From Boletus sp. NGJ (taxonomy: Eukaryota > Basidiomycota > Agaricomycetes > Boletales > Boletaceae), in the NCBI GenBank assembly GCA_019096195.1, contig JAGTXK010000196.1, forward strand, positions 124,001-188,000: DNA of 64,000 nucleotides, given 5' to 3'. Under the pieces are notes generated by a model that was not told where the DNA came from, did not search any database, and saw nothing but the letters and a program-made list of their open reading frames with translations. Both the position numbers and the translations under genes were made by a program. Each line of letters begins with the position of its first letter. Positions within the stretch are counted from its first letter, which is position 1. Shown in pieces: positions 10,725 to 52,859 of the stretch.

Positions 10725-11159
10725 TGCTCATAGAATTAACGAGCAGTGGGACAGGAAGCGACAGTGCATGTGGTTCAGTTTTGAGCATCCATATGGGCAG
10801 TGCTGAGGCGCATTCTGTGATCAGCATGGGTTATTCTGAGTCATAGTATTCTCGTGCGTCAAGTTGGAGTGCAGAAAAAATAATGTCCATTCCCCGGCCA
10901 TGATGACCTGACAGTAATCTTCGTGCGGTTCGTGTTGATTCGAGTTTCCCCTGGACTCAGATGATAGGCCGAGTCGCGGAATCACTGGCACAGCTGACTA
11001 TATATGCTCGTCACAATGGCACCACCTGCACATGCAGTCCGTTGAAGTCCAACTGTAAACGTGCCGGAAGATGCCCAGTGGATGCGATGGTATGCAACAT
11101 TCGTCTGTACGAATTCTCGACGGAAGTCTGCATATCGGTATGGCTGGTGCGTGGAACAG

Positions 11160-14100
11160 TGGAGGTGGAAAGCCTGCTTGGCGAGTTATTCGGCAAGTGA
11201 TTTGAAGAGAATCCTCGGGGTAGGAGACAATACCCCACATCCTTGTGCATGTCCCTATTAACTTATTCTTCCTTTCCCCTTTCCTTCTATCCCAGGTGTC
11301 AAACACGACAAGGTATCCACGACTCCCGATGATAGAATGTTTATATTCGATCTCGTCGCAGCACTGGGTGCTCAAAAAATCTTCTCATAGAAAGATGGCA
11401 GTTGCTATCTGTATTGATTGTCAAATATGTTCCAGTTCATCTATATGGAACATTTATGTCCAAGGAAGCCCGCAGAGGCGAGATCGACATTCGGTTCGTT
11501 TTATTATTGCTATCCAGGCGAGGTGCTGCTGCCAGGACTGCGATCGTGTTCGCAAACGTCGGGAAGGACAGGATTTGAAACCAATAGGAGGGAGGAGAGG
11601 CTGGAACACTGCTGGTGTAGCACGAGGTCGTGGCTACGAGTCCTCGCTCTAACACCCGCTACTTCACGATACCGCCGCGGGGATTCAGAAAACCTGAGAC
11701 ACGTTCAAGGTATATACTCATCCTTGCAATTCCGAATCTAATGAGTAGCTCAACCCTAGCAGCGACGATGTCAGCACATACCTGGCATATCAATTCGTGT
11801 ACGGAAATGATCGACCTGGGTGCTCGGCAGTGAGATCTTGAGAGCACAGCTAATGCCAAGCAGATCCGCGGTCACGGTGAACTCGAACAGTTAAGTAGTT
11901 ATCATTATCTTTATGATCACAGGCACAATCAAACGCCGCCTAGGACCATCATATACGGTGTTGAAGCTTCAAGCTTCAAGAACAGGCACCATCAAGTGCG
12001 TGAGGGCGAATAACTGGCCTAGTTTCTTCGTCTTCTCCCGATCACCTTCATTAGCAGAACCGGTCAGGAACAGTATCAGCGGTGTTGGACATGAAGAGCA
12101 GGAAACGAATGAGATATTAGTTGCTTGTCATAAATTGTCGTTATAACTGTCCGAGGGTGGAACAAACGGAAGTAGTGGTGATGTGAAAATTTGACTGTGG
12201 ATGCAGCGATAACAGAGGATATCGATGATTCTTAGAATACATTGAGTAAACGAATGACATGCTGGACATGGAAATTATAACGATCGGCAGGAAACGACGA
12301 TCACGCCTTCGTCTCGTTGGAAGAGCTGTGGGAACGAAAGGATGTATTGTGAAGTTCCACATCGCGTTCCGCACCTGTCCCGGACACCTCCGAAGCAATG
12401 GAGTTCTGATAGAGTCCGACTCTGACCACAATCAAGAGCGGTGTTAAGACCTGACGAAATCATTCAACTCAGCGTGAAACGAGAAGAGCATTAAGTGAGC
12501 TCGACGTACAGCCAATTGAGAGGCAACATCGAGTGATGGGATCGCATATGGAAAAGGGCTTCCATGCTCAGATATAAAGAGAGCCAGCATAATGATCGTC
12601 GCGCTGGAAAAAATGGCACCCGATTCGACGACAACGTATATAGAGTATAAATATGGGTTGCCCGAGGAGTGATCAGCACGGAAGGAAGCGACATTCTGGC
12701 CCATCCACCAGAGGCGTGCAGCGATCGCCAGTGTGACGGAAACGTTGACAATCAGGTCCAGCGCCCAAGAAGTTATAGTGAGGGGAATAAGTCCAGACAA
12801 GTTGGTGTTGGGGATCGCGAATAAGATAGTGTCTGCGTAAGCTGTACCTGGTGGGGAGTTTGTAAGCTGCTTAAATATAAAATTGTTCACCAACCGATGC
12901 AAGCCAAGTCTAGAAGTACCTGAGTGAGAGAAGCCTCAGTTAATGTTATAGGCGAAGCATTCTACCAAATGGTTACTTACGAAGAATATGGGGATTCTCC
13001 AATCACGGTTGAAAACAACGTAAAGACGCCAGATCTCACCAACTCACGTGAGCTTGAATTATGGGACTGCGGCTCTCTCATACTCACCAGGACAATATCT
13101 TGCACAAATGTCTTTCATCGTCCATTAGTGCAGACTCGTCGATCAGTGAAGGTGTGCTCGTACCAGACTGACATAAACCACATTCTTCAGCGTGCGCATT
13201 GGAAGCGTGTATTCGACGAAATAGAGCGTGGCGTAATCTGACACTCCTGGAGGCACATAGATGAATGCTTCCAGAAGTTGTCGCAGGGATGCCGCTACAT
13301 AGACGGTGCACAGAACGAAAAGTACGGTGGATGTTGACACAAGAACCCTGGTAGAATGAGAGTACGTCCCAAGCAAACGACACGGGACAATAAACTTACC
13401 ATTGACCGGAAATTCTCCGCCTTCTTGAAATGAGCAAGTACATACACAAACAATATAGCATGCAGCTGTAATGTTGATCACTTAATCGAAATTCTAGATT
13501 ACTCGAATCAAGGAGCGTACTTCAACCCTACGTCGCAGTGGTATTCAGCCACGATCGACACTCTGAGTCTGCAACACGTACCATAGAGCACACTCTCCAT
13601 CCAGATAGAGATTAACGATATTTCACCCATGGCGGGAGGGATACCCATGTTAGTCGCCATAATGTTGAAGGAAAAGTAAACTGCGGAAACGACGTGTACT
13701 TCGCATGTTTAATACCCTTCGAATGTGTATAAGCACAAACATGGAAATCCGGAAGCGACCGCGAGGCAATGGAGCTGACACTAGGCTCACCACGGAAATT
13801 ACATCCCCGCCACCAGGTACGACACAAGGGGGTGTGCACCATCATTATTTTGGTTACGTCATATCCCCACCTGACTTATCTTTTTGTATACCGGACCTGT
13901 GATCTCTGCCTGATTGCTGAGAGGGTGATTCAGTGGAGATGACTGACGCTCGAACTAATGGGGATAATGAGGTTAGGAAACTCATGCCAAGCAGTAAGGT
14001 CAGTATGCATCACTGGGGGACCCAGATCTCAGCATTGGTGTGTACACTAGGTTTCCGTCCTGTTCGCCCCTGCAGTGGAAGTGCAACCTAGAACACTCGA

Positions 14101-14300
14101 GGAAAATACTGCTCTTCAAGGAGGTCATATGCTTCTGGCCTGATTGACGTACGAAATGAAAACCACGTAAAGTGGCAAGGCCAAACTCGAAAGGCTGCTC
14201 ATGTGATCTCTCCTTCAAAAATTTCTTTTCCATGTTTGCATATCCTGGCGACAGTCTGATCAATAGTATGGAGGGAAACCTCAGACCTACTCCTTCAATT
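11160..14300. repeat. Tandem segmental duplication, copy 1 (about 3.1 kb)
   Basis: This segment matches 14301-17455 along its whole length, with scattered substitutions and indels. Shared landmarks are gcgatcgccagtgtgacgga in the gene, the gtttcttcgtct and ctcccgatcaccttcatt stretch downstream of it, and cctagaacactcgaggaaaa upstream. The unit contains one membrane-protein gene on the minus strand plus about 1.1 kb of its 3' flank, in which I see no gene. Copy 1 has about 80 bases near 11,365-11,455 that copy 2 lacks. Confidence 0.9.
12301..13660 (-). CDS. Agaricomycete multi-pass (7TM-like) membrane protein, copy 1
   Basis: The ATG at 13660-13658 gives MATNMGIPPAMGEISLIWME and SVLYG at a first donor. 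Later exons read INITAACYIVCVCTC, then VLFVLCTVYVAASLRQLLEA, the loop FIYVPPGVSDYATLYFVEYT, a short exon FVQDIVL, IWRLYVVFNRDWRIPIFF, and NLSGLIPLTITSWALDLIVN. The next block ends ESGAIFSSATIIMLAL, and the tail holds LLIVVRVGLYQNSIASE and stops at 12301-12303. This pattern of about seven hydrophobic segments, an RDWRIP loop and a VESGAIFS helix is a large basidiomycete family of unknown function. Introns are GT-AG. All exons followed join in frame, so it is taken as functional. Copy 2 lies 3.1 kb to the right. Confidence 0.75.
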
Positions 14301-15109
14301 AGTGGAGAGGGAGAGCCAGCTTGGCGGGTTATTCGACGAGTGATTTGAAGTGAATCCTGGAGGTAGGAGACACGACCACGTTTACTTCCTTGGGTGTGTC
14401 CCTATCCACTCCTTCGTGCTAAACACATCACGGTATCCGTGACTCCCGATGATAGAATGCTTATGTTCGACCTCGTCGCAGCACTTTATACTCGTAATGT
14501 CCAAGGAGGCCGCGGAGGCGGATCGATACTCGATTCAAACTTATTATTGCTATCCAGGTGAGATGCTGCTACCGGCACTACGTTCGGAAGAACAGGGAAT
14601 TAGAACGAATAGGAGGGAGGAGAGGTTGGAATGCTTGCTGGGATAGCGCGATGTCGTGCGCTACTCCCCGATCTGACACCCACTGGCTAGTTCGCGCCAC
14701 CGCTGCGGGATTCGGAGAAACTATTAGTAACTTGAGAAGCGTTCAAGGGATATACTTAGACTGATAACACTCTTCGCATATCAATTTGTGTACGGAAATG
14801 ATCAACCTGCGCGCTGAGCGCTGGAGAGCACAGCTAGTAATACCAAGTGGGATCCGTGGTCAGGATGAACTCGAACAGTTATCTTGGTCATGATCACAGG
14901 CACAATCGAACGGCGCCAGGGACTATCTTGTATGGTGTTCAAGATTGATCAAGACAGCTACCATCAAGTGTGTGAGGCTTAAAATGGTCATTTCGGCGGT
15001 CCATGTGAATGACTGGCCTGGTTTCTTCGTCTGCTCCCGATCACCTTCATTAGAATCACTCAGGGCGGTGATGGGGCTTGGTGAACACGAAACGATTGAG
15101 ATATTAGTA

Positions 15110-15310
15110 GTTACCGGTCGTAGATTTGTGGATGAACCTGCTCTACCTGGTGGAATCTGTCATAGCGCGTTGAACGCTGCGCAACAATCGTATGACAGCC
15201 AGGCTGGGGGACTGGCAACTGAGGGTTTTGTTTTTTCTTGTTTATTGTCTTACGCGCGAGTGTGTTACCTAAGTTATGAGGAAAAATTGCAGTATAGGGT
15301 TCTACATTCG
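15110..15310. other. About 200-base insertion in duplication copy 2
   Basis: Copy 1 reads directly from gagatattagttg to a gtggaacaaacgga block, whereas copy 2 has about 200 additional bases. The insert edges tagtagttac and gtaataacta form a weak inverted repeat (8 of 10), which could be a worn MITE. No coding signal is present. Confidence 0.4.
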
Positions 15311-15483
15311 TAATAACTATGTGAGGGGTGGAACGAACGGACTCCCTGAGGTCTATCGTACAGTAGTGGTAATGCGAAAGTCGACTGTTGATAATAACGT
15401 AGGCATATCGTAGATTCTTAGAATAAATAAAATAAGCGTATGACATCCTGCACATGGAGATCAGTTGCGGCAGGAAACAACCA

Positions 15484-16877
15484 TCACACCTTCGTCTCGT
15501 TGGAAAAGCTGCGCGAATGAAAGGACATGTCGTGAAGTTCCACATCGCGTTCCGTATCCAAATGTTGGGCCAGCCTGACCCGAGATGTTACACTGGCATT
15601 ATTCTGTCTTGTCTCGGGCGCCTCTGAAGCAATGGAGCACTGATAAAGTCCGACTCTGACCACAATCAAGAGTGACGTCAAGACCTAATGAATTCATTCA
15701 ACTCAGCGTGAAACGAGAAGAGGATCAAGTATGCGCGACGTACAGCCAGTTGAGAGGCAACGTCGAGTGATGGGAACGAATACGGAAAAGGGCTTCCATG
15801 TTCAGAGCCAGCATAATGATCGTCGCGCTGGAAAAAATGGCACCCGATTCGACGACAACGTATATAGAGTATAAGTAATGGTTGCCCGAGGAATAATCAG
15901 CGCGGAAGGAAGCGACATTCCGGCCCATCCACCAGAGGCGTGCAGCGATCGCCAGTGTGACGGAAACGTTGACAATCAGGTCCAGCGCCCAAGAAGTTAT
16001 AGTGAGGGGAATAAGTTGGTGTTTGGAGTCGCGGTTGAGATAGCGTCTACATAAGCTGTACCTGGCGGGGAGTTTGTAAGCTGCTTAAACATAAAATTGT
16101 CCACGAACCGATGCAAGCCAAGTCTAGAAGTACCTGAATGAGAGAAGCCTCAGTTAATGTTATAGGCGAAGCATTCTACCAAATGGTTGCTTACGAAGAA
16201 TATGGGGATTCTCCAATCACGGTTGAAAACAACGTAAAGACGCCAGATCTCACCAACACACGTGAGTTTGAATTATGAGACTGTGGCTCTCTCATACTCA
16301 CCACGCTCTATTTCGTCGATTACATGCTTCTAATGCGTACGCTGAAGAATGTGGTTTATGTCAGTTTGGTACGAGCATACCTTCACCCATCGACGAGTCT
16401 GCACTAATGGATGATGAGAGACGTTTTTGCAAGATTTTATCCTGGCGTAATCTGACACTCCTGGAGGCACATAGATGAATGCTTCCAGAAGTTGTCGCAG
16501 GGATGCCGCTACGTGGACAGTGCACAGAACGAAAAGTACGGTGGATGTTGACACAAGAACCCTGGTAGAATGAGAGTACGTCCCAAGCAAACGACACGGG
16601 ACAATAGACTTACCATTGACCGGAAATTCTCCGCCTTCTTGAAATGAGCAAGTACATACACAAGCAATATAGCACGCAGCTGTACTGTTGATCACTTGAT
16701 CGAAAACGTCTAGATTACTTGGATCAAGGAGCGTACTTCAACCCTACGTCGCAGTGATTTTCAGCTACACTGGCAATCGACACAGAGCCTGCAACACACA
16801 CCATAGAGCACAGTCTCCATCCAGATAGAGATCAACGATACTTCACCCGTAGTGGGAAGGGAACCTTCAGTCGCCAT
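15484..16877 (-). pseudogene. Membrane protein, copy 2, disrupted by an inversion and a frameshift
   Basis: This is the duplicate of the gene at 12301-13660. The first exon reads MATEGSLPTTGEVSLISIWM and the frame continues through VAASLRQLLEAFIYVPPGVS. Immediately after VSDYA the sequence switches to the reverse complement of what copy 1 has, for 145 bases, so the exon encoding LYFVEYTLPMRTLKNVVYV now lies on the plus strand and the minus-strand frame runs into unrelated residues. Further on, a 10-base deletion after IIMLAL (near 15,804) shifts the frame again. The tail LLIVVRVGLYQCSIASE is still recognisable and ends at 15484-15486. Two independent lesions make loss of function likely, unless the original family member can tolerate exon skipping. 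Confidence 0.8.
16301..16445. other. 145-base inversion relative to the tandem copy
   Basis: Bases 16301-16445 are the reverse complement of 13087-13231 (about 90 percent identical by eye), while the flanks on both sides match copy 1 in direct orientation up to the base. Both segments are 145 bases and both begin CCA and end TGG, a 3-base inverted repeat at the breakpoints. Confidence 0.92.
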
Positions 16878-17455
16878 GATGTTGGAAGAAAAGTGAATTC
16901 GGAAAAGCCGTACGCTTCACATGTTTAACATCCTTTCCAATACAAACATAAAAATCCGGGATTGACCGCAAGGCAATGATCAAAGTTGGTACTACTTACC
17001 ACGGAAATTACAGGAATGGTCCATCGCCAATGGTCCAGGACCTATGATCTCCGCCATAGATGGAGGGTGACTCAGTGAAGATAACCAACGCTCGAACTAA
17101 TGCGGATAATGCGGATAGTGAACTCAATGCCAAGCAGCGTCGGTATGCATCGGTGATAGATTCATATTCCAGCCTTGGTGTGCATACAAGACGGAATTGG
17201 TCGTCCCTGCAGTAGGAATGGAACCTAGAACACTCGAGGAAAATACTGCTCTTGAGAGATCAAATGCTTCTTGCCTGGTTGACGTACTGAGAGTGACACG
17301 TAAGGTCAGGCAAGGCCTAGCACAACGACCAGTTAAATTCTGAAAGAGGTTCTCATGTGACTACTCCAAAATTTGTTTTCCACGTTTGCAAATGGCGATC
17401 CCTGGCGACCGTCTGATCAATAGTATCAAAGAAAATCTCAGACCTACTTTGTCAA

Positions 17456-24309: not shown

Positions 24310-27300
24310 ATGGACAACAACCTCAGTTGTTATGGCTGTGGGAAGACTTTTACCACCCAAAAACACCTCCATGCTCACAAGGCAGTCTGTAAGACAAAGA
24401 AACGGCTTGTACTTGATGTTTTACAGGCCCACAAGTGTCTTTCGAAAGCAAAACGAAAGCATCGAAAGGCAAGGTCACTGAGCCGACATGGTTCACTGGT
24501 ACTCGGGGCACAGGAATCACGTGCATCCCACTCGCCTTCCCCACAGCTCATACAATGTTATAGCCAAGATTTCTTCAAAGATGACATGGACTTGGTACGT
24601 TCACTGTCACACCGTGATTTTCTTACCATTTGCTTACTTTTTACAGGACAATATTGAGGCAGGACCATCTAATCAAGCTGCCAATGAGCCAGTGTCACCC
24701 CGCCCTCTTTTCCAAGATGTTTTGCCGATGTCTGAAACCCCTCCCCCAGTTTTTTTGCGTTCGGGATGGCAAATTCATCTTCCTCAGCATTATACAGACT
24801 ACCTACCCTGTTCTTCAGTTCCTGATGCTTCTCCAGATCTCCCATCTCCATCAGTGCCAGCTTCCTGCCGGACTATCAAATTCAAAACCATTCCCGATGA
24901 GATGGGAGTATTTCGGGTATATCCAAGATATCCTGGTGTTCCCAAACGAGACACTCTTGAAGCTGTCTCTGATGCCTTGACTCTGGAAATGGAATGCGGC
25001 TCACAAACTTCCTTGAGTGTCTTACCCCACGCTGACACACTCTACTCTGCGTTTAGCCATCCCACCGCTGGCCTTTTGATGGCTTGGCAGTACTCTGGAG
25101 GAACGATCAAATCCACTGATGAACTTGATTGTTTATGGATGTATATTCAGGATCCTGCATTCAATCCGACAGTCAACAAGATCTTCAGCCACACTCGAGA
25201 GAAAAAACATATCAAGAAATATCTTGCTGACTCGTCAAATCCCTTCAACACTGCGCATGGATGGCAGCGCTCTTCTGTGAAAATTCCATTACCTCACAAA
25301 CGCAGTAAATACACATCTGAGCAGGATCCAGAGCTTCCTTGGCTAACAGTCGATGGGATCTATCACCATGACATCACCGACATCATCATCTCAGCATTCC
25401 AAAGCAAGACTTTGTCAACATATCATATCTTTCCCTATGAAGAGTATTGGAGACAGTCGAGCGATAGTGAACCACTCCATCTATTTGGCAAGGCCTATTC
25501 CTCCCCGGTATTTATCAAGGCCTATCAAGAAATCCATTCGCTTCCTGGTGATCCCGGAGACAACCTAGAATGTGTTGTTGTCTTGCTCATGCTTTGGTCC
25601 GATGCTACGCAACTCGCTAACTTTGGTGACGCATCTCTCTGGCCAATTTATCTTTATCTTGCCAATAAATCCAAGTATACACATGGAAAGCCAACAGCAA
25701 ATGCATGCTGACATGTTGCCTATATTCCCGGTGTATGTTATCTTAGTATTCTCTTGTCAAACTGTTCACAGTCATTCTATAGCTCCCTAACGACTTTCAA
25801 GATGAATATAGCAAGTACTATGGCAAGTCATCATCAGATGACATGTATACCCACTCCAAGTGTGAATTGATGCACGCGATCTGGAGGCTGCTCCTTAATG
25901 AGCAATTTGTTGATGCGTACAAGAACGGCATTGTGATTAAGTGTTTTGACAGAATCACACGATGGGTCTTTCCTCATTTCTTTACTTACTCAGCTGATTA
26001 TCCAGAAAAGTGAGTACATTTATTTTTATCTTCTATGTCATCTCACCATTCTAGGATTCTACTTGCATGCATCAAATTTCTTGGAAAATGTCCCTGTCCC
26101 CACTGCTTGGTCAGGAAGTCTGATGTCAGTGACATGGGATCTCACGTTGACATGGATACCTGACTCAACAAGACTCGCATCAGCAACAACAAACTAAAAA
26201 ACAAGGTAACAAGAGCCCAGAGATCCATTTTCAAGTATGGAGCGAGTATCAATGGTGTGCATGTGAAGGATACACTTGATGATGAGTCATTGGTACCTAC
26301 CCATGTAACTTGTTCTCTCTATACTCTTCTGAATCAGGTCTTGCTAATGACTATGATTAGAATGCCTTTACTGAGAAAATCTCAGATGAGGCATTTAATT
26401 TTTTTGTACTACTAGTTGTCGACCTCCTACATGAATTTGAATTGGGTGTTTGGAAGGCGATATTCACCCATTTGTTATGTATCCTTTTTGCTGAAGGAGG
26501 GCCTTCAATCAAAAGGCTGAATTACCAGTGGGTCATACTGAATTTCTTTCTTCCACCACTAACGAGTAGTACATTTTCAGATACTGAAGAGTGCCTACTT
26601 TCGGCAGAGGAACCATCTGAAAGTTTGCCAAGAACGCCTCTAGTATGAAGTGTTTGGCAGCACAGGATTTTGAAGACCTCCTTCAGGTTGGTTTTCAAAC
26701 TATTCATCGGTCATTTAGCGCTCATTTGAATGAGAATAGTGTGTGATGCCTTGTTTTGAAGCCCTTCTCCCAGCTCCCCACAACTCACTCGTGCTCAACC
26801 TACTCTTTGACTTGGCAACTTGGCATGGTTACGCCAAGCTTCGACTTCACATGGAGAAGACCCTTGTGTTTTTTGACAAGGCGATTGAATCACTTTGTCA
26901 TTCAGTGGCTAAGTTCCAAGAGATTACTTGCAGTACCTATCAAACAACTGAACTCCCTCAAGAAAGTGCTGCCCATGGTTGTCGCCAAGCTGCACTTGCC
27001 GCAAATCAAGGCATGATTCCAGCTCCAATCAACCTGAGGGCGAAGCTTAAGCATCTGAATCTTACAACTTACAAGTACCATGCTCTCGCTGACTATCCAG
27101 ATACGATCAGGCGATATGGAACAACCAATAGCTATACAACTCAGCTCGTAAGTGTATTTTCTCTTAATGGGACTTTTCTCATGATATTCTCACAGGGTGA
27201 GCTTGAACACCGCAAACTCAAATGGCAGTATCCATGGTCAGGCAAGAAGAGAGTTTCCATGGTTTCTAGTATTGCTAGACAAGAAGCCATCAAGCGGTTC

Positions 27301-38720: not shown

Positions 38721-38766
38721 CGCAGATGAATATCCCAACGAACTCAAACAATCGCGTGGTCGATGT

Positions 38767-41029
38767 CTACTTACTCACGATTCCGCACGGCACCTGCATG
38801 TATTGCATCGAATTATCAATGCGTTCCATCTCCAGTACCTGAGCCAAAACACATCCACGCAGGTAACGCGATCGAAAGGATAGCCTTGTCTGACTCTCGC
38901 TGATGTCATCCAATATGAGTTCAATAGGCAACTGAAAGGAAGGACGCGCACTGTTACACGGACCGTCCCGGTGGTGGGTGGAGATGGATCGTTTACCTGT
39001 TGGGCCTAATAGAAAATAAGGTATATGCCATGGTCCATAATAATGGAAAAGACCCACTGCGCCTGCTTCCGTTGCACCTGCGGGTCGTTTTCCGCTATGA
39101 GATGCATTTTTATTCGCACGTCTGGGACGGGCAGCCTTGGTAGCCGATTTCGGCTGCAATAAAGATGTATGAGTCTCTGCATATAGAATCGAGGAACAAC
39201 AACAAACCTGTCGTTTTACAACGGGCTTCGCGACTGCTCGCTGAGATGATGTATTAGACACAGTGCATCGGATCGTCTGTCAAACACTCACTGGCTCACG
39301 TCGATTCGCAGCCATGTGCGAAGTTCCCTCATTCGTGACGTCCACTTTTGCTGGTGACTGGGAAGGAGATTGACGATCAGCAGGCCGACGCGACTTTCCA
39401 GGACGTCGATCGGGCTCATGCAAACCCGGGTCCTTGTTACTCCTCCTGATCTTTGTCTGTAGCCACTTTTTGAATGTTCGAATGCCCTGGAATGACTCGA
39501 CAGTATTACGATCCTCTTGATGTACCTCCGTGGGGGAGGTCACCGGTGGGGTATCTGACGATTGCGGTATGGTATTGGATGCGCCAACTTGCGGTACCTC
39601 ATCCTCACGAAGATTGACAGAGGATGCTAGTGACAGTGACTCCAACAGGGTCAACACGGGGAAAAGAGAAAAATGCAAAGATCACCAACATCGTCATAGT
39701 CGAACTGAGGAGCGGACACATTCGATGGCACTTCGATCTATACATTGTGAGAACTCGCTTCGAAGGAGGAAAGAACGAAGTGATACCTCGAGGAGACCAC
39801 CATCACCGTCGTTGCTGCAGGTCTCAGACTTGGCTGAACTGGGTTTTCCGGGTTCCTCCTGATATGCGTACACGATGAGGAAGTCAGCGCAACTCGTTTT
39901 GACATTGAAACGGGAAAATTCTACCGGGGTAGAGTCGAGTGGCTTGTTGTCTTGTCCACCCGAGGTCGAAGGTTGTTCCACAGATGCCTGACGCAGTGTG
40001 TCAAAGTGGGGACAGAATGTAGCTCATCCGATATGCCAATGGACAAATGCTTACATGGAAAGGACCATATACATCCGGGAGAACACTGCCGAGGTTACGA
40101 ACAATGACTTTTCCTTCCCGTCGTCCAATCGCCAGATAGCGACTATCTAGGGAGAGGGCAATGGAGCGTATGTCTTCGTCGTCCTCGATGACAGGGCCAA
40201 TGCGAGAGAGTGTTGTTGAATCTAGGAACGAGATTGAACGTGATCTGTAGGTGGCAATGAATGTTCCATTGGGGCTAGAGCGATAGACTGGACAGTGTTA
40301 TCACCGAGAATATGGGATTCGGCGAGCTGGGACCTTGTGGAGACATCGAATGATCTGATTCTCTCCGTTCTTAGACACAATGAAGATTTGCTTCCCATCA
40401 TTTGACCACGCCAGCGGAGTGCTTGGGTACCCAAAGGTTGGGGTAGTTGTGATGGTGATGAGCTTGTCGCCGTTGTGGCCGTCAAAGATACAGATGGAAC
40501 CTCCACTGCAGGAAGTGGCGACGTGCTCGCCATTCGGGGAGAACTTCATCCCCCCGATACTACTGTCATGTCGCAGTGGGCCAACAAGTCGTTCCCCCGG
40601 ACTGGTAATACTCCAGATGCTCGCTTCTTTGGCAGTCCCGGTGGCGAAGCTGGTCGAGTCTGGGGAGACGTCGACTGCATACACCGAGTTTTCGCCCTCC
40701 ACTTCAGTGACCTTTTCTTGGATCTCTGCGTCCCAGACGCTTGCACCCGCCTCAGTCCCACACACTATCCCATTTGTGATTCCTCGACACGGAAATGGCA
40801 TTCAAGTTCATTCCGTTTGCTTTCCCACCTCTTGACCATCTTCAAGTCGCCACCGTTGGATTCCAGAGCCATACCCGCCCAAAATATGTTTTCCGTCAGG
40901 GTGGAACGCGACTGCCCATACCCTATCAATGGACCAATGTCAAGTACTATGGTTGGGTCTTACTGCATTGTCAGCATTCAACGCAATCACTCCCCGAAGC
41001 TGCTACGCACCAGTCTTTGTCGACGACAT
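38767..41029 (-). pseudogene. WD40-repeat protein, copy 1 (frameshifted)
   Basis: The start is ATG 41029-41027 (MSSTKT), then a small intron ending in taag and the exon DPTIVLDIG. Here one base is missing relative to the 50.5 kb copy, which shifts the frame. The propeller is then readable as VCGTEAGASVWDAEIQEKVT, VYAVDVSPDSTSFATGTAKE, RHDSSIGGMKFSPNGEHVAT and YPSTPLAWSNDGKQIF, with a second frameshift near 40,375. The tail exons read QPSTSGGQDNKPLDSTPVEF, LREDEVPQVGASNT and SRRPADRQSPSQSPAKVDV. The last exon has LILDDISESQTRLSFRSRY and a stop at 38771 where copy 3 has Tyr. A seven-bladed propeller would normally act as a protein-binding platform. Confidence 0.78.
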
Positions 41030-41730
41030 CCTCACCGATGGTACTCAGTCCGAGTCAGTCGTTGGCTTCGAGGAGTGACTAGTGAAAAACAAGGAGTGGT
41101 TTTTCCTGAGAAATACATTTCCTTATTCTCATACCCGTGTCTTTGGCGCTTATTCTTGGTCGGATCCTAGCAACTTGGTGACCTTGTTGCGACGGGTAGT
41201 CGTCTTACACGGGGACTTGCGAGTGCTCGTTATATCTCGGCTACCTGACTCGGTCCACGACGAGCGCGCGCACAAAACACATGTGCATTCCAGGACGCTC
41301 CTGACCACGTAGCATTCATGGGAGATGAATGTCTGTAGTTCACCACCCAGGCTCGGACTACATCACATTCACATTCATAATTGGGCGTCTTGGAACAGCT
41401 CGCGCTTGCTGCTATGGACGTCGGACAGGTGGACATCGCAAACGTATGTACGTGTCTCCTCGGGGCTTGAATGGTTGCGCTCACGCACGTATCGTTGGCA
41501 TCAGCACTACCTTTGGACGTACAACGACAAGTTACTGGTTCACCGCACGTAGACTATCACAGGCATCCGCATAGAAGCCACAGAAACGCCAGAGAATCGT
41601 TCTCAACCGCTCTACTGAGCTTTTCGAAGCAGCTCCTACCACGTGGTATGCAGGCTAGTGATCAAGTAGACGTCGTGTTCTCATGCTTTTCCCTCCAAGG
41701 CAATTTAGACACGCAGCATTTCGATATTCC
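41030..41730 (-). repeat. WD40 upstream flank U, copy 1
   Basis: About 700 bases upstream of WD40 copy 1 recur, in matching orientation relative to the gene, at about 44,250-44,880 (copy 4), 46,200-46,796 (copy 2) and 49,950-50,517 (copy 3). Shared words include tttggacg(c/t)(a/t)caacgacaa, cacaggcatc(c/t)gca and gaaacgccag. At its far end (41,660-41,720) this copy and the one at 46,200-46,340 both run into the same scrap of DUF6533 sequence. Confidence 0.75.
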
Positions 41731-46340: not shown

Positions 46341-46796
46341 CGTCGGCTTCTGTGCGGATCACACTGATACAGTCTGCGTATGGTGAGCCGGGGACTAGTC
46401 AGTGACGTGGTTCGAGTTCGGGTAATGCATATACTGGTCTCCCATCACACGGAGGACATTTATGAACGCAGCCTGTTCAAGAGCGTCCTAGAACGCACAC
46501 ACGTTTTGTTGTACGCTCGTCGTGAACGGAGTCTCGCAGGAGTCGCAGCCGAGATATGACGAGCATGAGTCGCATGTAATTGCCCTTGGCAACGAGGGAA
46601 GGTTTTGCTAATGCAGACGGCTTGCCTGGTCGTCTGAATCGCAAGGTCCGAAGAAGAATAAGTGCCAAAGACACGAGACGCCTGGAACCCATATTGAGAA
46701 AAGGAAACGTGTTTCTGAGGTAACCTTGCGCAGCGCGAGTAATCCACGCCTCGTTTTCCACTCTTCGACTTCCAACACTGAGTGCCATCGGTGAGG

Positions 46797-48950
46797 ATGT
46801 CGTCGACAAAGACTGGTGCGTAGCAGCTTCGGGGAGTGATCGCGTTGAATGCTGACAATGCAGTAAGACCCAACCATGGTACTCGACACTGGTCGCCTTG
46901 ATAGGGTATGGGCAGTCGCGTTCCACCCTGACGGAAAACATATTTTGGGCGGGTATAGCTCTGGAATCCAACGGTGGCGACTTGAAGATGGTCAAGAGGT
47001 GGGTAAGCAAACCGGAATGGACTTGAATGCCATTTCCGTGTCGAGGAATCACAAGTGGGTGGTGTGTGGGACTGAGGCGGGTGCAAGCGTGTGGGACGCA
47101 GAGATCCAAGAAAAGGTCACTGAAGTGGAGGGCGAAAACTCGTGTGTATGCAGTTGATGTCTCCCCAGACTCCACCAGGTTTGCCACTGGAGCTCACAAA
47201 GAAGCGAACATCTGGAACATTAGAAGCGGGGAGAGACTCGTTGGCCCACTACGACATGACAATTGGATCAGGGGGATGAAGTTCTCCCCGAGTCACGGCG
47301 AGCAGATCGCCACTTCCTGCAGCAGAGGTTCTATCCGTATCTTTGACAGCCACAACGGTGACGAGCTCATCACCATCACGACTATCACAACTTCAGGGTA
47401 CCCAAGCACTCCCCTGGCGTGGTCAAACGATGGGAAGGAAATATTTGGGGTGTCCAACGACAACAAAATCAACTCCTTCAATGCCTCCACGGGATTGCAG
47501 CTCGCGAAATCACCTGTTATCGATGGCAGGAATGTCGAATCTATTGCTCTAGCTGCCAACGGAACGTTCATTGCTATCTACGCATCGACTTCAGTCTCGT
47601 TCCTAGACACAACAACTCTCTCTCGCATTGACCCTGTCATCGAGGACAGGGATCACATATACTCGATTGCCCTCTCTCTTGATAGCAGCTATCTCGCATC
47701 TGCACGAGGTGACGGGAAAATCACCGTGCGTGACCTCGGCTGTATTCTCCCGGACGTGTACGGTCCTTTCCACGTAAGCATTCGTCCATTCACGATGTTG
47801 GCATATCGAATCAGCTGCACTCCGTCTCCTACGCTGACACACTGCATTAGGTATCTACGGAGCAACCCTCGACCTCGGGTGGACATGAGAACAAACCACT
47901 CGAGTCTACCTCGGTAGAATGTTTTCCGTTCCATCGCAAAAACGAGTTGCGCTGACTTCTTTATCGTGTACGTAAATCAGGAAGAACCTGGAAAATCCAA
48001 TTCAGTCAAGTCCGAGACCCATAGCAACCACGGTGATGGTGATCTCCTCGAGGTATCACTGTGTTCATTTCCTCCTTAAAGCGAGTCCTCAGAACGGCAT
48101 AGGTTGAGGAGCCATCGAATGTGCCTGCTTCTCAGTTCGACTATGACGATGTTGGTGATCATTACGTTTTTCACTTTTCTCCGTGTTGACCCTGTTGGAG
48201 GCACCGTCACCGGTATCATCTGTCAATTCTCGTGAGGACGAGGTACCGCCAGTTGGCATATCCCCTGCTGTACCACAATTGTCAGATACCCCACCGGTGA
48301 CCTCCCCTACAGAGGGACATCCAGAGGGACATCATAACACTGTTGACTCATCTCAGGGCCTCCGAAGATTGAAAAGATGGCTTCAGACAAACATCAGGAG
48401 GAGTAACAAGGACCCGGGTTTGCATGAGCCCGATCGACGTCCTGGAAAGTCGCGTCGGCCTGCTGATCGTCAATCTCCTTCCCAGTCACCAGCAAAAGTG
48501 GACGTCACGAATGAGGGAACTTCGCACATGGCTGCGAATCGACGTGAGCCAGTGAGTGCTCCTTGATAGACGATCCGATACAGTGTTTGTTTCTAATACA
48601 TCATCTTAGCGAGCAGTCGCGAAGCCCGTTGTAAGACAACAGGTTTGTTGTTACTCGAGTCCATATACAGAGACTCATACATCTTTATTACAGCCGAAAT
48701 CGGCTACCAAGGCTGCCCGTCCCAGACGTGCGAATAAAAATGCATCTCATAGCGGAAAACGACCCGCAGGTGCAACGGAAGCAGGCGCAGTGGGTCCTTT
48801 TCCATTATTATGGACCATGGCATATACCTTATTTCCTATTAGGCGCAACAAGTGGACGATGCATCTCGTCCTTCTGCCGATGGGGTCCATATCACGGTGC
48901 GCGTACTTTCGTCAAACTTGTAGTGTTACACTGACATTAGATTAGCATAA
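46797..48950 (+). pseudogene. WD40-repeat protein, copy 2 (frameshifted, tail rearranged)
   Basis: ATG at 46797 (MSSTKT), small intron, then DPTMVLDTGRLDRVWAVAFH and HILGGYSSGIQRWRLEDGQE. After KVTEVEGENS one base is inserted near 47,143 and the frame breaks; it resumes as VYAVDVSPDSTRFATGAHKE. Further blades read RHDNWIRGMKFSPSHGEQIA, TSCSRGSIRIFDSHNGDELI, YPSTPLAWSNDGKEIFGVSN and IYSIALSLDSSYLASARGDG. The tail exons (48,180-48,900) read SSVNSREDEVPPVGISPAVP and KSRRPADRQSPSQSPAKVDV. The last exon is followed by extra copies of itself (48,950-49,315). Sequence differs from copy 3 more than copy 1 does. Confidence 0.75.
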
Positions 48951-49315
48951 CCGAGGGTCAGGCAGGGCTACCCTCAGGCTTTCGATCACGTTTCCCGCGT
49001 GGATGTGTTGTCTTCGGTCAGGTACAGAAGATGATTGATGTATGTGATTTGATGCAATACACGTAGATAGCGATCGAGCTCCATAATGGTTATGTGAATA
49101 TCGACCATCCACTTCTTTGAGTTTGTGTCACCTCACGGCACTCACATCAGCGAGAGTCAGAGGATGCTATCCTTTCTCGATCGCATTTCTCGCATGGATG
49201 TGTTCGAGCTGAGATACCGGAGATGGGACACATGGATCCAGGTGATTGGGTGTACACATATGTCATACTGAATCGCGAGTACGTGGACATCGACGATGCG
49301 GTACTTTGTGCTCGT
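48950..49315 (+). repeat. Two extra tandem copies of the WD40 gene's last exon
   Basis: The last exon, with the words cagcgagagtcag, tttcgatcg, tggatgtgtt, and the end tacgtrgacatcgac, is found in degenerate form at 48,955-49,125 and again at 49,140-49,312. The second copy still reads YVDIDDAVL near its end. Copy 3 and copy 1 each have this exon once. Confidence 0.75.
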
Positions 49316-49950: not shown

Positions 49951-50517
49951 TGCACGCACCATTGGTAGGACCCGCCTCCAAAAGTTCAGTACAGTGCTTG
50001 AGAACAACTTCTGGCGTTTCTGTGGCTCTTGTGCAGATGCCTGTGATACAGTCTACGTGCGGTGAACTGGGACGTTGTCGTTGTGCGTCCAAAGGCATGC
50101 TGACGTCAACCAGACGTTTGTGAGCCTAACCATTCGAGCCCCGGAGCAATGCCCACATGCTCGACGTCCCTGGCAGCTCGCGCGAGTCGTTCCAGAAACA
50201 TCTATATATCGTGTTCTGTGCGCAAAATTTCGCGGGTGGGCCAGTGGGTTTAATGTAGGTTGTACGCTCGTTGTGAATCGTGTCCGGCAGCCAGGATCAT
50301 GATACAACGAGTACTCGCATGTCCCTGGGGCGCGGGCAAAACTATCCGTCGCAATGAGGTTACGACGTAGCTGACATCCGAGCAAGAATAAGCGCCAAAA
50401 ACACGACCCATATTGAGAAAAAGGAAACGTGTTTCTGAGGTAACCTTGCGCAGCGCGAGTAATCCACGCCTCGTTTTCCACTCTTCGACTTCCAACAACT
50501 GAGTGCCATCGGTGAGG

Positions 50518-52812
50518 ATGTCGTCGACAAAGACTGGTGCGTAGCAGCTTCGGGGAGTGATTGCGTTGAATGCTGACAATGCAGTAAGACCCAACCATAG
50601 TACTTGACATTGGTCACATTGATAGGGTATGGGCAGTCGCGTTCCACCCTGACGGAAAACATATTTTGGGCGGGTATGGCTCTGGAATCCAACGGTGGCG
50701 ACTTGAAGATGGTCAAGAGGTGGGAAAGCAAACCGGAATGAACTTGAATGCCATTTCCGTGTCGAGGAATCACAAATGGATAGTGTGTGGGACTGAGGAG
50801 GGTGCAAGCGTCTGGGACGCAGAGATCCAAGAAAAGGTCACTGAGGTGGAGGGCGAAAAGTGTGTGTATGCAGTCGACGTCTCCCCAGACTCGACCAGCT
50901 TCGCCACCGGGACTGCCAAAGAAGCGAGCATCTGGAGTATTACCAGTCCGGGGGAACGACTTGTTGGCCCACTGCGACATGACAGTAGTATCGGGGGGAT
51001 GAAATTCTCCCCGAATGGCGAGCACGTCGCCACTTCCTGCAGTGGAGGTTCCATCTGTATCTTTGACAGCCACAACGGTGACGAGCTCATCACCATCACA
51101 ACTACCCCAACCTTTGGGTACCCAAGCACTCCGCTGGCGTGGTCGAACGATGGGAAGCAAATCTTCGCCGTGTCTGAGGAGGAGAGAATCAGATCATTTG
51201 ATGTCTCCACAAGGTCCCAGCTCGCCGAATCGCAAATTCTCAGTGATGACAATGGGATCCAGTCTATCACTCTAGCCGGCAACGGCAAATTCATGGCCAC
51301 CTATGCATTGCGTTCCATCATGTTCCTGGACTCATCGAATCTCTCTCGCATTGGCCCTGTCATCGAGGACGACAAAGACATACGCTCCATTGCCCTCTCC
51401 CTAGATAGTCGCTATCTGGCGATTGGACGACGGGAAGGGAAAGTCATTGTTCGTAACCTCGGCAGTGTTCTCCCGGATGTATATGGTCCTTTCCATGTAA
51501 GCATTTGTCCGTTGGCATATCGGATGAGCTACATTCCGTCCCCACTTTGACACACTGCGTCAGGCATCTGCGGAGCAACCTTCGACCTCGGGTGGACAAG
51601 ACAACAAGCCACTCGACTCTACCCCGGTAGAATTTTCCCGTTTCAATGTCAAAATGAGTTGCGCTGACTTCCTCATCGTGTACGCATATCAGGAGGAACC
51701 CGGAAAACCCAGTTCAGTCAAGTCTGAGACCCGCAGCAACGACGGTGATGGTGGTCTCCTCGAGGTATCACTTCGTTCTTTCCTCCTTCGAGGCGAGTTC
51801 TCACAATGTATAGATCGAAGTGCCATCGAATGTGTCCGCTCCTCAGTTCGACTATGACGATGTTGGTGATCTTTGCATTTTTCTCTTTTCCCCGTGTTGA
51901 CCCTGTTGGAGTCACTGTCACTAGCATCCTCTGTCAATCTTCGTGAGGATGAGGTACCGCAAGTTGGCGCATCCAATATCGTACCGCAATCGTCAGATAC
52001 CCCAGCGGTGACCTCCCCCACGGAGGTACATCCAGAGGATCGTAATACTGTCGACTCATTCCAGGGCATTCGAACATTCAAAAAGTGGCTACAGACAAGC
52101 ATCAGGAGGAGTGACAAGGACCAGGGTTTGCATGAGCCCGGTCGACGTTCTGGAAAATCGCGTCGGCCTGCTGTTACTGATCGTCGATCTCCTTCCCAGT
52201 CACCAGAAAGAGTGGATGACACCAATGAGGGGATTTCGCACATGGCTGCAACTCGACGTGTGCCAGTGAGTCCTTTATAAACGATCCAATGCAGTGTGTC
52301 TAACACATTATCTTAGCGAGCGGTCGCGAAACCTGTTGTAAAACGACAGGTTGGTTGTTCCTCGACTTTATATGCCGGGACTCATCAGGCATTGCAGCCT
52401 AAATCGAATGCCAAAGCTACGGGTCCCAGACATCGGAATAAAAATGCTTCTCACAGTGGAATGCGTCCCGCAGGTGCAACGGAAGCAAGCGCAGTGGGTC
52501 CTTTTCCATTATTATGGACCATGGCATATACTTTATTTTCTATTAGGCCCAACAGGTGAACGATCCATCTCCACCCACCACCGGGGCGGTCCGTGTATCG
52601 GTGCGCGGCCTTCCTTCAAGTTACCTATTGTACTCATATTGGATGACATCAGCGAGAGTCAGGCAAGGCTATCCTTTCGATCGCGTTACCCGAGTGGATG
52701 TGTTTTGGCTCAAGTACCACCGGAGATGGAACGCATTGATCCAGGCAATTTTATACATGTAGATGCCATGCTGAATTGTGACTACGTAGACATCGACCAT
52801 GTGGTTCTTTGA
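50518..52812 (+). CDS. WD40-repeat (seven-bladed propeller) protein, copy 3, apparently intact
   Basis: Exon 1 is 50518-50536 (MSSTKT plus one base). An intron ending in taag leads to exon 2, 50589-51496; the two add to 309 codons in frame. Exon 2 begins DPTIVLDIGHIDRVWAVAFH and holds the blades: HILGGYGSGIQRWRLEDG, WIVCGTEEGASVWDAEIQEK, VYAVDVSPDSTSFATGTAKE, IGGMKFSPNGEHVATSCSGG, TPLAWSNDGKQIFAVSEEER, IQSITLAGNGKFMATYA and IRSIALSLDSRYLAIGRREG, about seven in all. Exon 3 from 51564 reads ASAEQPSTSGGQDNKPLDST. Later exons are disordered and basic (SRRPAVTDRRSPSQSPERVD), and the last one has LILDDISESQARLSFRSRYP and ends YVDIDHVVL at 52812. Such proteins are common in Agaricomycetes; the partner is unknown. 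Borders of the tail exons are approximate. Confidence 0.78.
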
Positions 52813-52859
52813 GTTCGCTGTGACAAACTTGCACCTATGCTTTCGCGCATAGTATTAAT

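Follow-up and report, generated by a model that had tools for sequence, protein, structure and literature searches.

A microinversion inside one copy of a tandem gene duplication in Boletus sp. NGJ

A tandem duplication with one open and one broken gene copy

The window analysed here is a stretch of 64,000 nucleotides from Boletus sp. NGJ (contig JAGTXK010000196.1, positions 124,001 to 188,000) with 49% G+C. Alignment bore out the tandem duplication that a first-pass annotation of this DNA had proposed. Its two copies lie head to tail and align with many gaps, and outside a better conserved core their identity is about 77% (404 of 1756 aligned bases differ). The features on which the analysis turns are the following, in window coordinates.

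11158..14300, no strand assigned: copy 1 of the tandem duplication, from the alignment
14301..17455, no strand assigned: copy 2 of the tandem duplication, from the alignment
12301..13660, minus strand: gene of copy 1, 307 codons in 8 exons, with seven hydrophobic peaks
13660-13578, 13465-13400, 13347-13164, 13111-13088, minus strand: copy 1 exons 1-4, splice-signal model
13034-12981, 12919-12895, 12847-12510, 12450-12301, minus strand: copy 1 exons 5-8, splice-signal model
13087..13231, minus strand: copy 1 counterpart of the block, in direct orientation, inside a gene model with GT/AG introns and an open frame
15484..16877, minus strand: copy 2, read as a pseudogene, carrying the inverted block and, in exon 7, two deletions of 10 bases
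16301..16445, minus strand: inverted block of copy 2, 139-145 bases, a 131/145 reverse-complement match
12456..13539 (copy 1 coordinates), no strand assigned: low-divergence core of about 1.1 kb, from a two-state HMM

Copy 1 carries a putative gene for a seven-helix-like membrane protein. Its reading frame of 924 nt including the stop (TGA) encodes 307 codons with no internal stop and with GT/AG introns, and the hydropathy profile of the protein has seven hydrophobic peaks. The model was drawn by hand from splice signals alone, and the donor of intron 1 (GTGTTG at 13577) was picked because it keeps the frame, which is its sole support. The spliced protein matched no Pfam family up to E 10 and no PDB entry up to E 1; weak Pfam matches to PGG and Flu_PB2_6th among five local ORFs fell below the cut-offs and were dismissed as chance. 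A search for relatives returned 10 pattern stretches in viral contigs and 11 in genome contigs, none of them confirmed, and both collections are a poor place to look for a fungal gene. Presumably the protein resembles hypothetical multi-helix proteins of Agaricomycetes.

When copy 2 was read with the copy 1 exons, exons 1-3 entered the flipped block and ran into a stop after 125 codons. Exon 7 also lacks 10 bases at each of two points, opposite copy 1 12802-12793 and 12582-12573, and both deletions break the frame. With three frame breaks when set against the copy 1 model, two of them beyond what the first-pass annotation had described, copy 2 is, judged by its reading frame, a pseudogene. Two other length differences keep the frame: exon 1 of copy 2 is 3 bases shorter, and its exon 8 has 51 extra bases (15559-15609) opposite copy 1 12376. 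Since 51 is a multiple of three, copy 2 may retain an older C-terminal part that copy 1 may have lost.

The inverted block

Positions 16301-16445 of copy 2 match positions 13087-13231 of copy 1 as reverse complement, ungapped, with 131 of 145 identities (90.3%; BLAST E 3e-50). When the copy 1 block was slid along the window as reverse complement, ungapped, the placements averaged 36.3 identities (s.d. 5.3) and the second best had 60/145, so that a chance match is excluded and the comparison with background that had been named as a possible refutation comes out in favour of the inversion. Direct matches adjoin the block on both sides, as had been claimed (12376-13089 with 15610-16303, and 13229-13719 with 16443-16935), and between them the copy 2 block matches its copy 1 counterpart only as reverse complement. 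Both junctions are flush: 145 bases take the place of 145, with zero bases gained or lost at either end, and the copies align without a gap from copy 1 13492 to 12803, block included. The segment 16301-16445 is confirmed as a real, clean microinversion in copy 2.

The 3-base inverted repeat CCA/TGG reported at the breakpoints is present exactly at the block ends, and the direct and inverted matches overlap at each end by the three bases of this repeat. The breakpoints can therefore be placed only to within three bases, giving an inverted length of 139-145 bases. The earlier description of an exact inversion of 145 bases was right about the boundaries; its letters are not exact, since 14 substitutions separate the copy 2 block from the copy 1 block, and its length is a range. 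The natural before/after pair that had been proposed is blurred by these substitutions.

The inverted segment had been taken for an exon. In copy 1 it covers the last 68 nt of exon 3 (13231-13164), intron 3 (13163-13112, 52 bases), exon 4 (13111-13088, 24 bases) and the first base of intron 4. The claim that it codes in frame with its neighbours survives as to the open frame, with the residues corrected to TLYFVEYTLPMRTLKNVVYVSL, followed past intron 3 by TFVQDIVL. The inversion removes coding pieces of two exons plus the splice sites between them. The direct orientation is probably ancestral, because the frame and splice sites of copy 1 run unbroken through the block and because copy 2, read with the copy 1 exons, stops inside it. 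The flipped block is open for 37 codons, which invite the prediction of a false exon and are a warning for gene predictors.

The block belongs to a described mutation class, the microinversion, and the word rare in the first-pass annotation was an overstatement. Between Drosophila melanogaster and D. pseudoobscura 143 microinversions of 40 to 4,408 bases are described; in the available part of that report none of the 143 overlaps an exon of its host gene, and in seven cases the exon touched belongs to a nested or overlapping gene (PMC1779558). The Boletus block resembles them in size and in being a conserved sequence inverted in place, but differs in that it destroys parts of two exons, in a copy that is broken elsewhere too (PMC1779558). 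Between human and chimpanzee, the accessible portion of a second study counts 59 microinversions of 17 to 33 bases, eight of them with inverted repeats of only 3 bases, which in six cases lie directly at the edges (PMC8755829). Inverted repeats at the edges, some as short as 3 bases, are shared with the Boletus block, which unlike that set measures 139-145 bases and lies between paralogues, not orthologues (PMC8755829). Spacer inversions in yeast, as far as the excerpt at hand describes them, likewise show that local copying of the opposite strand can yield a reversed segment, but their spacers are 2-5 bases long and were seen inverted only with arms longer than 9 bases, which counts against the copying mechanism preferred below for the Boletus block (PMC8604942).

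Uneven divergence between the copies

The history of the two copies is uneven, a point that goes beyond the first-pass annotation. A two-state HMM, given the mismatches and gap openings of the copy alignment, found one core (copy 1 13539-12456) with a rate of 0.062 against 0.25 in the surroundings, and the BIC preferred two states (2566.1) to three (2586.9) or one (2701.2). Divergence is 5-6% in the core and 23-25% around it, introns included. Counting substitutions only, with gap columns left out, the core without the block differs at 49 of 919 positions and the sequence outside at 404 of 1756 (p 1e-35). The block itself, with 14 differences in 145, departs clearly from the outside (p 1e-4) and less so from the rest of the core (p 0.056).

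The core is a low-divergence tract with sharp edges that ignores exon-intron limits, one of its edges lying in intron 1 near 13540, and it probably records past gene conversion between the copies. Further along, a 95-base identical run (copy 1 12792-12698) comes straight after a highly different patch, at whose end copy 2 has lost 10 bases. This succession of patch and run over 12852-12698 may be a sign of patchy conversion.

Origin of the inversion

Our best explanation, which as a whole we give about an even chance, is a historical microinversion in copy 2 that would have arisen after homogenisation of the core, by a template switch or by microhomology-mediated break-induced replication. Today, on this explanation and with the same evenly balanced confidence, the inversion would have no role beyond helping to keep copy 2 inactive. 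Plausibly copy 2 could tolerate an exon-destroying inversion since it was redundant or had already lost its function.

In this mechanism one arm of the CCA/TGG inverted repeat would be where the polymerase departs from its template and the other arm where it comes back; in between it would copy about 140 bases from the opposite strand within copy 2. The setting could be a replication fork or the repair of a break inside the block, the latter by microhomology-mediated break-induced replication. The equal length and flush ends favour opposite-strand copying with two precise switches, or break repair primed by the repeat. The polymerase switch is nevertheless the least certain part of the explanation. 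In the available part of the human-chimpanzee study, its authors propose break-induced replication for microinversions with 3-base repeats and judge replication template switching hard to apply at repeats of 3-4 bases (PMC8755829). The great-ape switches, in the portion of that work at hand, are akin in that local copying of the opposite strand can reverse a segment; their gold-standard fragments, 12 bases long at the median, reach at most 128 bases, which the Boletus block exceeds, and 5.5% of the events are length-neutral, so that 139-145 bases without net change would be unusual for a template switch (PMC7954356).

That the 3-base repeat sits exactly at the ends also counts in favour, an inverted repeat of at least 3 bases bounding 5.1% of 200,000 random intervals (100-199 bases, drawn from the duplicated region). 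So short a repeat is weak evidence for any microhomology mechanism, however, and nothing longer surrounds the block: the best imperfect inverted repeat scores 7.0 locally, a value that 58% of 1000 random placements attain. That a recent long-range switch freshly copied the block out of copy 1 is unlikely, and this origin was rejected, since the block is no closer to copy 1 than its neighbours are (14/145 against 8/300 in the adjoining 150 bases on each side, p 0.004).

The main competitor to a polymerase switch is a pair of nearby double-strand breaks whose freed fragment was religated in reverse by end joining, a possible though somewhat doubtful origin. About 145 bases suits an excised linear fragment, an overlap of 3 bases is usual in end joining, and a repeat so near the chance level (5.1%) speaks for it as well; end joining, however, often trims or adds bases, and neither junction here lost or added any. 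The first-pass annotation had named template switching and end joining side by side; with a repeat of at least 3 bases at 5.1% of random intervals the two are indistinguishable. The balance tips slightly towards precise template switching or microhomology-primed repair and away from the rejoining of two breaks.

As to the order of events, which is read from divergence alone, an old tandem duplication was likely followed by homogenisation of the core with the block still direct, and then by the inversion in copy 2. That the divergence of the block is near that of the core and far from that outside suggests that it was homogenised while still direct. The somewhat higher divergence of the block than of the rest of the core (p 0.056) counts against this order. 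On the reverse order the inversion would predate the last homogenisation, the flanks having been converted later while the flipped block, unable to pair, kept its older differences; we regard this as rather unlikely. It draws on the excess of differences in the block over its close flanks, at 150 bases on each side (the comparison just given, p 0.004) and at 200 (14/145 against 12/400, p 0.003), and on a three-state HMM in which most of the block is assigned to the middle-rate state (posterior 0.81). With flanks of 300 bases, however, the effect weakens (30/590, p 0.049), as it does against the rest of the core; introns alone are non-significant at all three widths (p 0.16 to 0.35), the widths themselves being the analyst's choice. 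The BIC likewise favours two states over three, and the first 19 bases of the block (13231-13213) lie inside a run of 86 identical bases spanning the breakpoint.

A corollary would be that the flipped block is an island that conversion could not cross, left to diverge while its flanks were refreshed later, and this we hold to be unlikely. If true, a microinversion of about 145 bases would act as a local barrier to the homogenisation of tandem duplicates and record its own age. Among the literature matches listed, no title concerned this locus or described duplicates protected from conversion by an inversion, which does not prove that no such report exists. As a single case of a known mutation class in an inactive copy, the inversion matters little. 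Its use lies in being flush and relatively dated, at a length slightly above the 128-base maximum in the available portion of the great-ape work (PMC7954356), and possibly in letting one ask whether so short an inversion can block gene conversion between duplicates.

Both orders take the core for a conversion tract, and it is improbable that the copies are alike there through selection on both of them or a lower local mutation rate, with no conversion at all. The exons beside the block do show fewer amino-acid changes than expected: there are 3 synonymous and 2 non-synonymous differences to its left (ratio 0.29) and 11 and 11 to its right (0.41), while the exonic part of the block has 3 and 6 (0.88), numbers too small for a test. 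A rate difference is also compatible with a comparison of two copies that has no outgroup. Against this, the core introns are about as conserved (22/340 differences, against 369/1526 in noncoding sequence outside, p 2e-15) while exon 1, which is coding but lies outside the core, lacks this conservation (13/80), so that selection on coding sequence alone fails to explain the core. Divergence moreover changes within intron 1, from 12/37 in its outer to 5/75 in its inner part, and copy 2 is frame-broken. An assembly or sequencing artefact is very improbable: although the inversion is known from a single assembled sequence, its 14 differences show that no piece of copy 1 has simply been misplaced there, and chimeric reads give one junction, a flush two-sided inversion not being their usual product.

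Other features of the window

Six paralogue pairs of the window, the present one included, were scanned for nested inversions over 11,517 aligned bases in partly overlapping pairs, keeping only hits of at least 18 bases near the diagonal. None convincing was found in the five other pairs; their single candidate, 22 bases at 48625-48646 (77%, E 3.4), was rejected as chance.

ARAGORN found no tRNA genes in the window. The Pfam matches that follow, taken with the short GT/AG introns of copy 1, suit a fungus. The Pfam scan covered 20 of the 106 stop-to-stop ORFs of at least 110 codons, plus the five local ORFs, and among those 20 an Isy1-like splicing factor was matched by two ORFs at 805-2038. 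A paralogue family has three copies at 38739-41049, 46777-49033 and 50498-52817, which are 83-93% alike, two in the same orientation and one reversed. The ORF tested in one of them (40406-41167) had no match to WD40 models, and such models matched ORFs in the other two (47027-47914 and 50588-51547). The ORF at 29140-29742 matches a Pif1 2B domain below the cut-off (19.4 against 23.9 bits) and is possibly a remnant of a Helitron or a helicase. At 24482-25708 an ORF of 409 codons matches the Plavaka transposase (PF18759) at 28.7 bits, just above the curated cut-off of 26.3 bits; Plavaka elements point to basidiomycetes.
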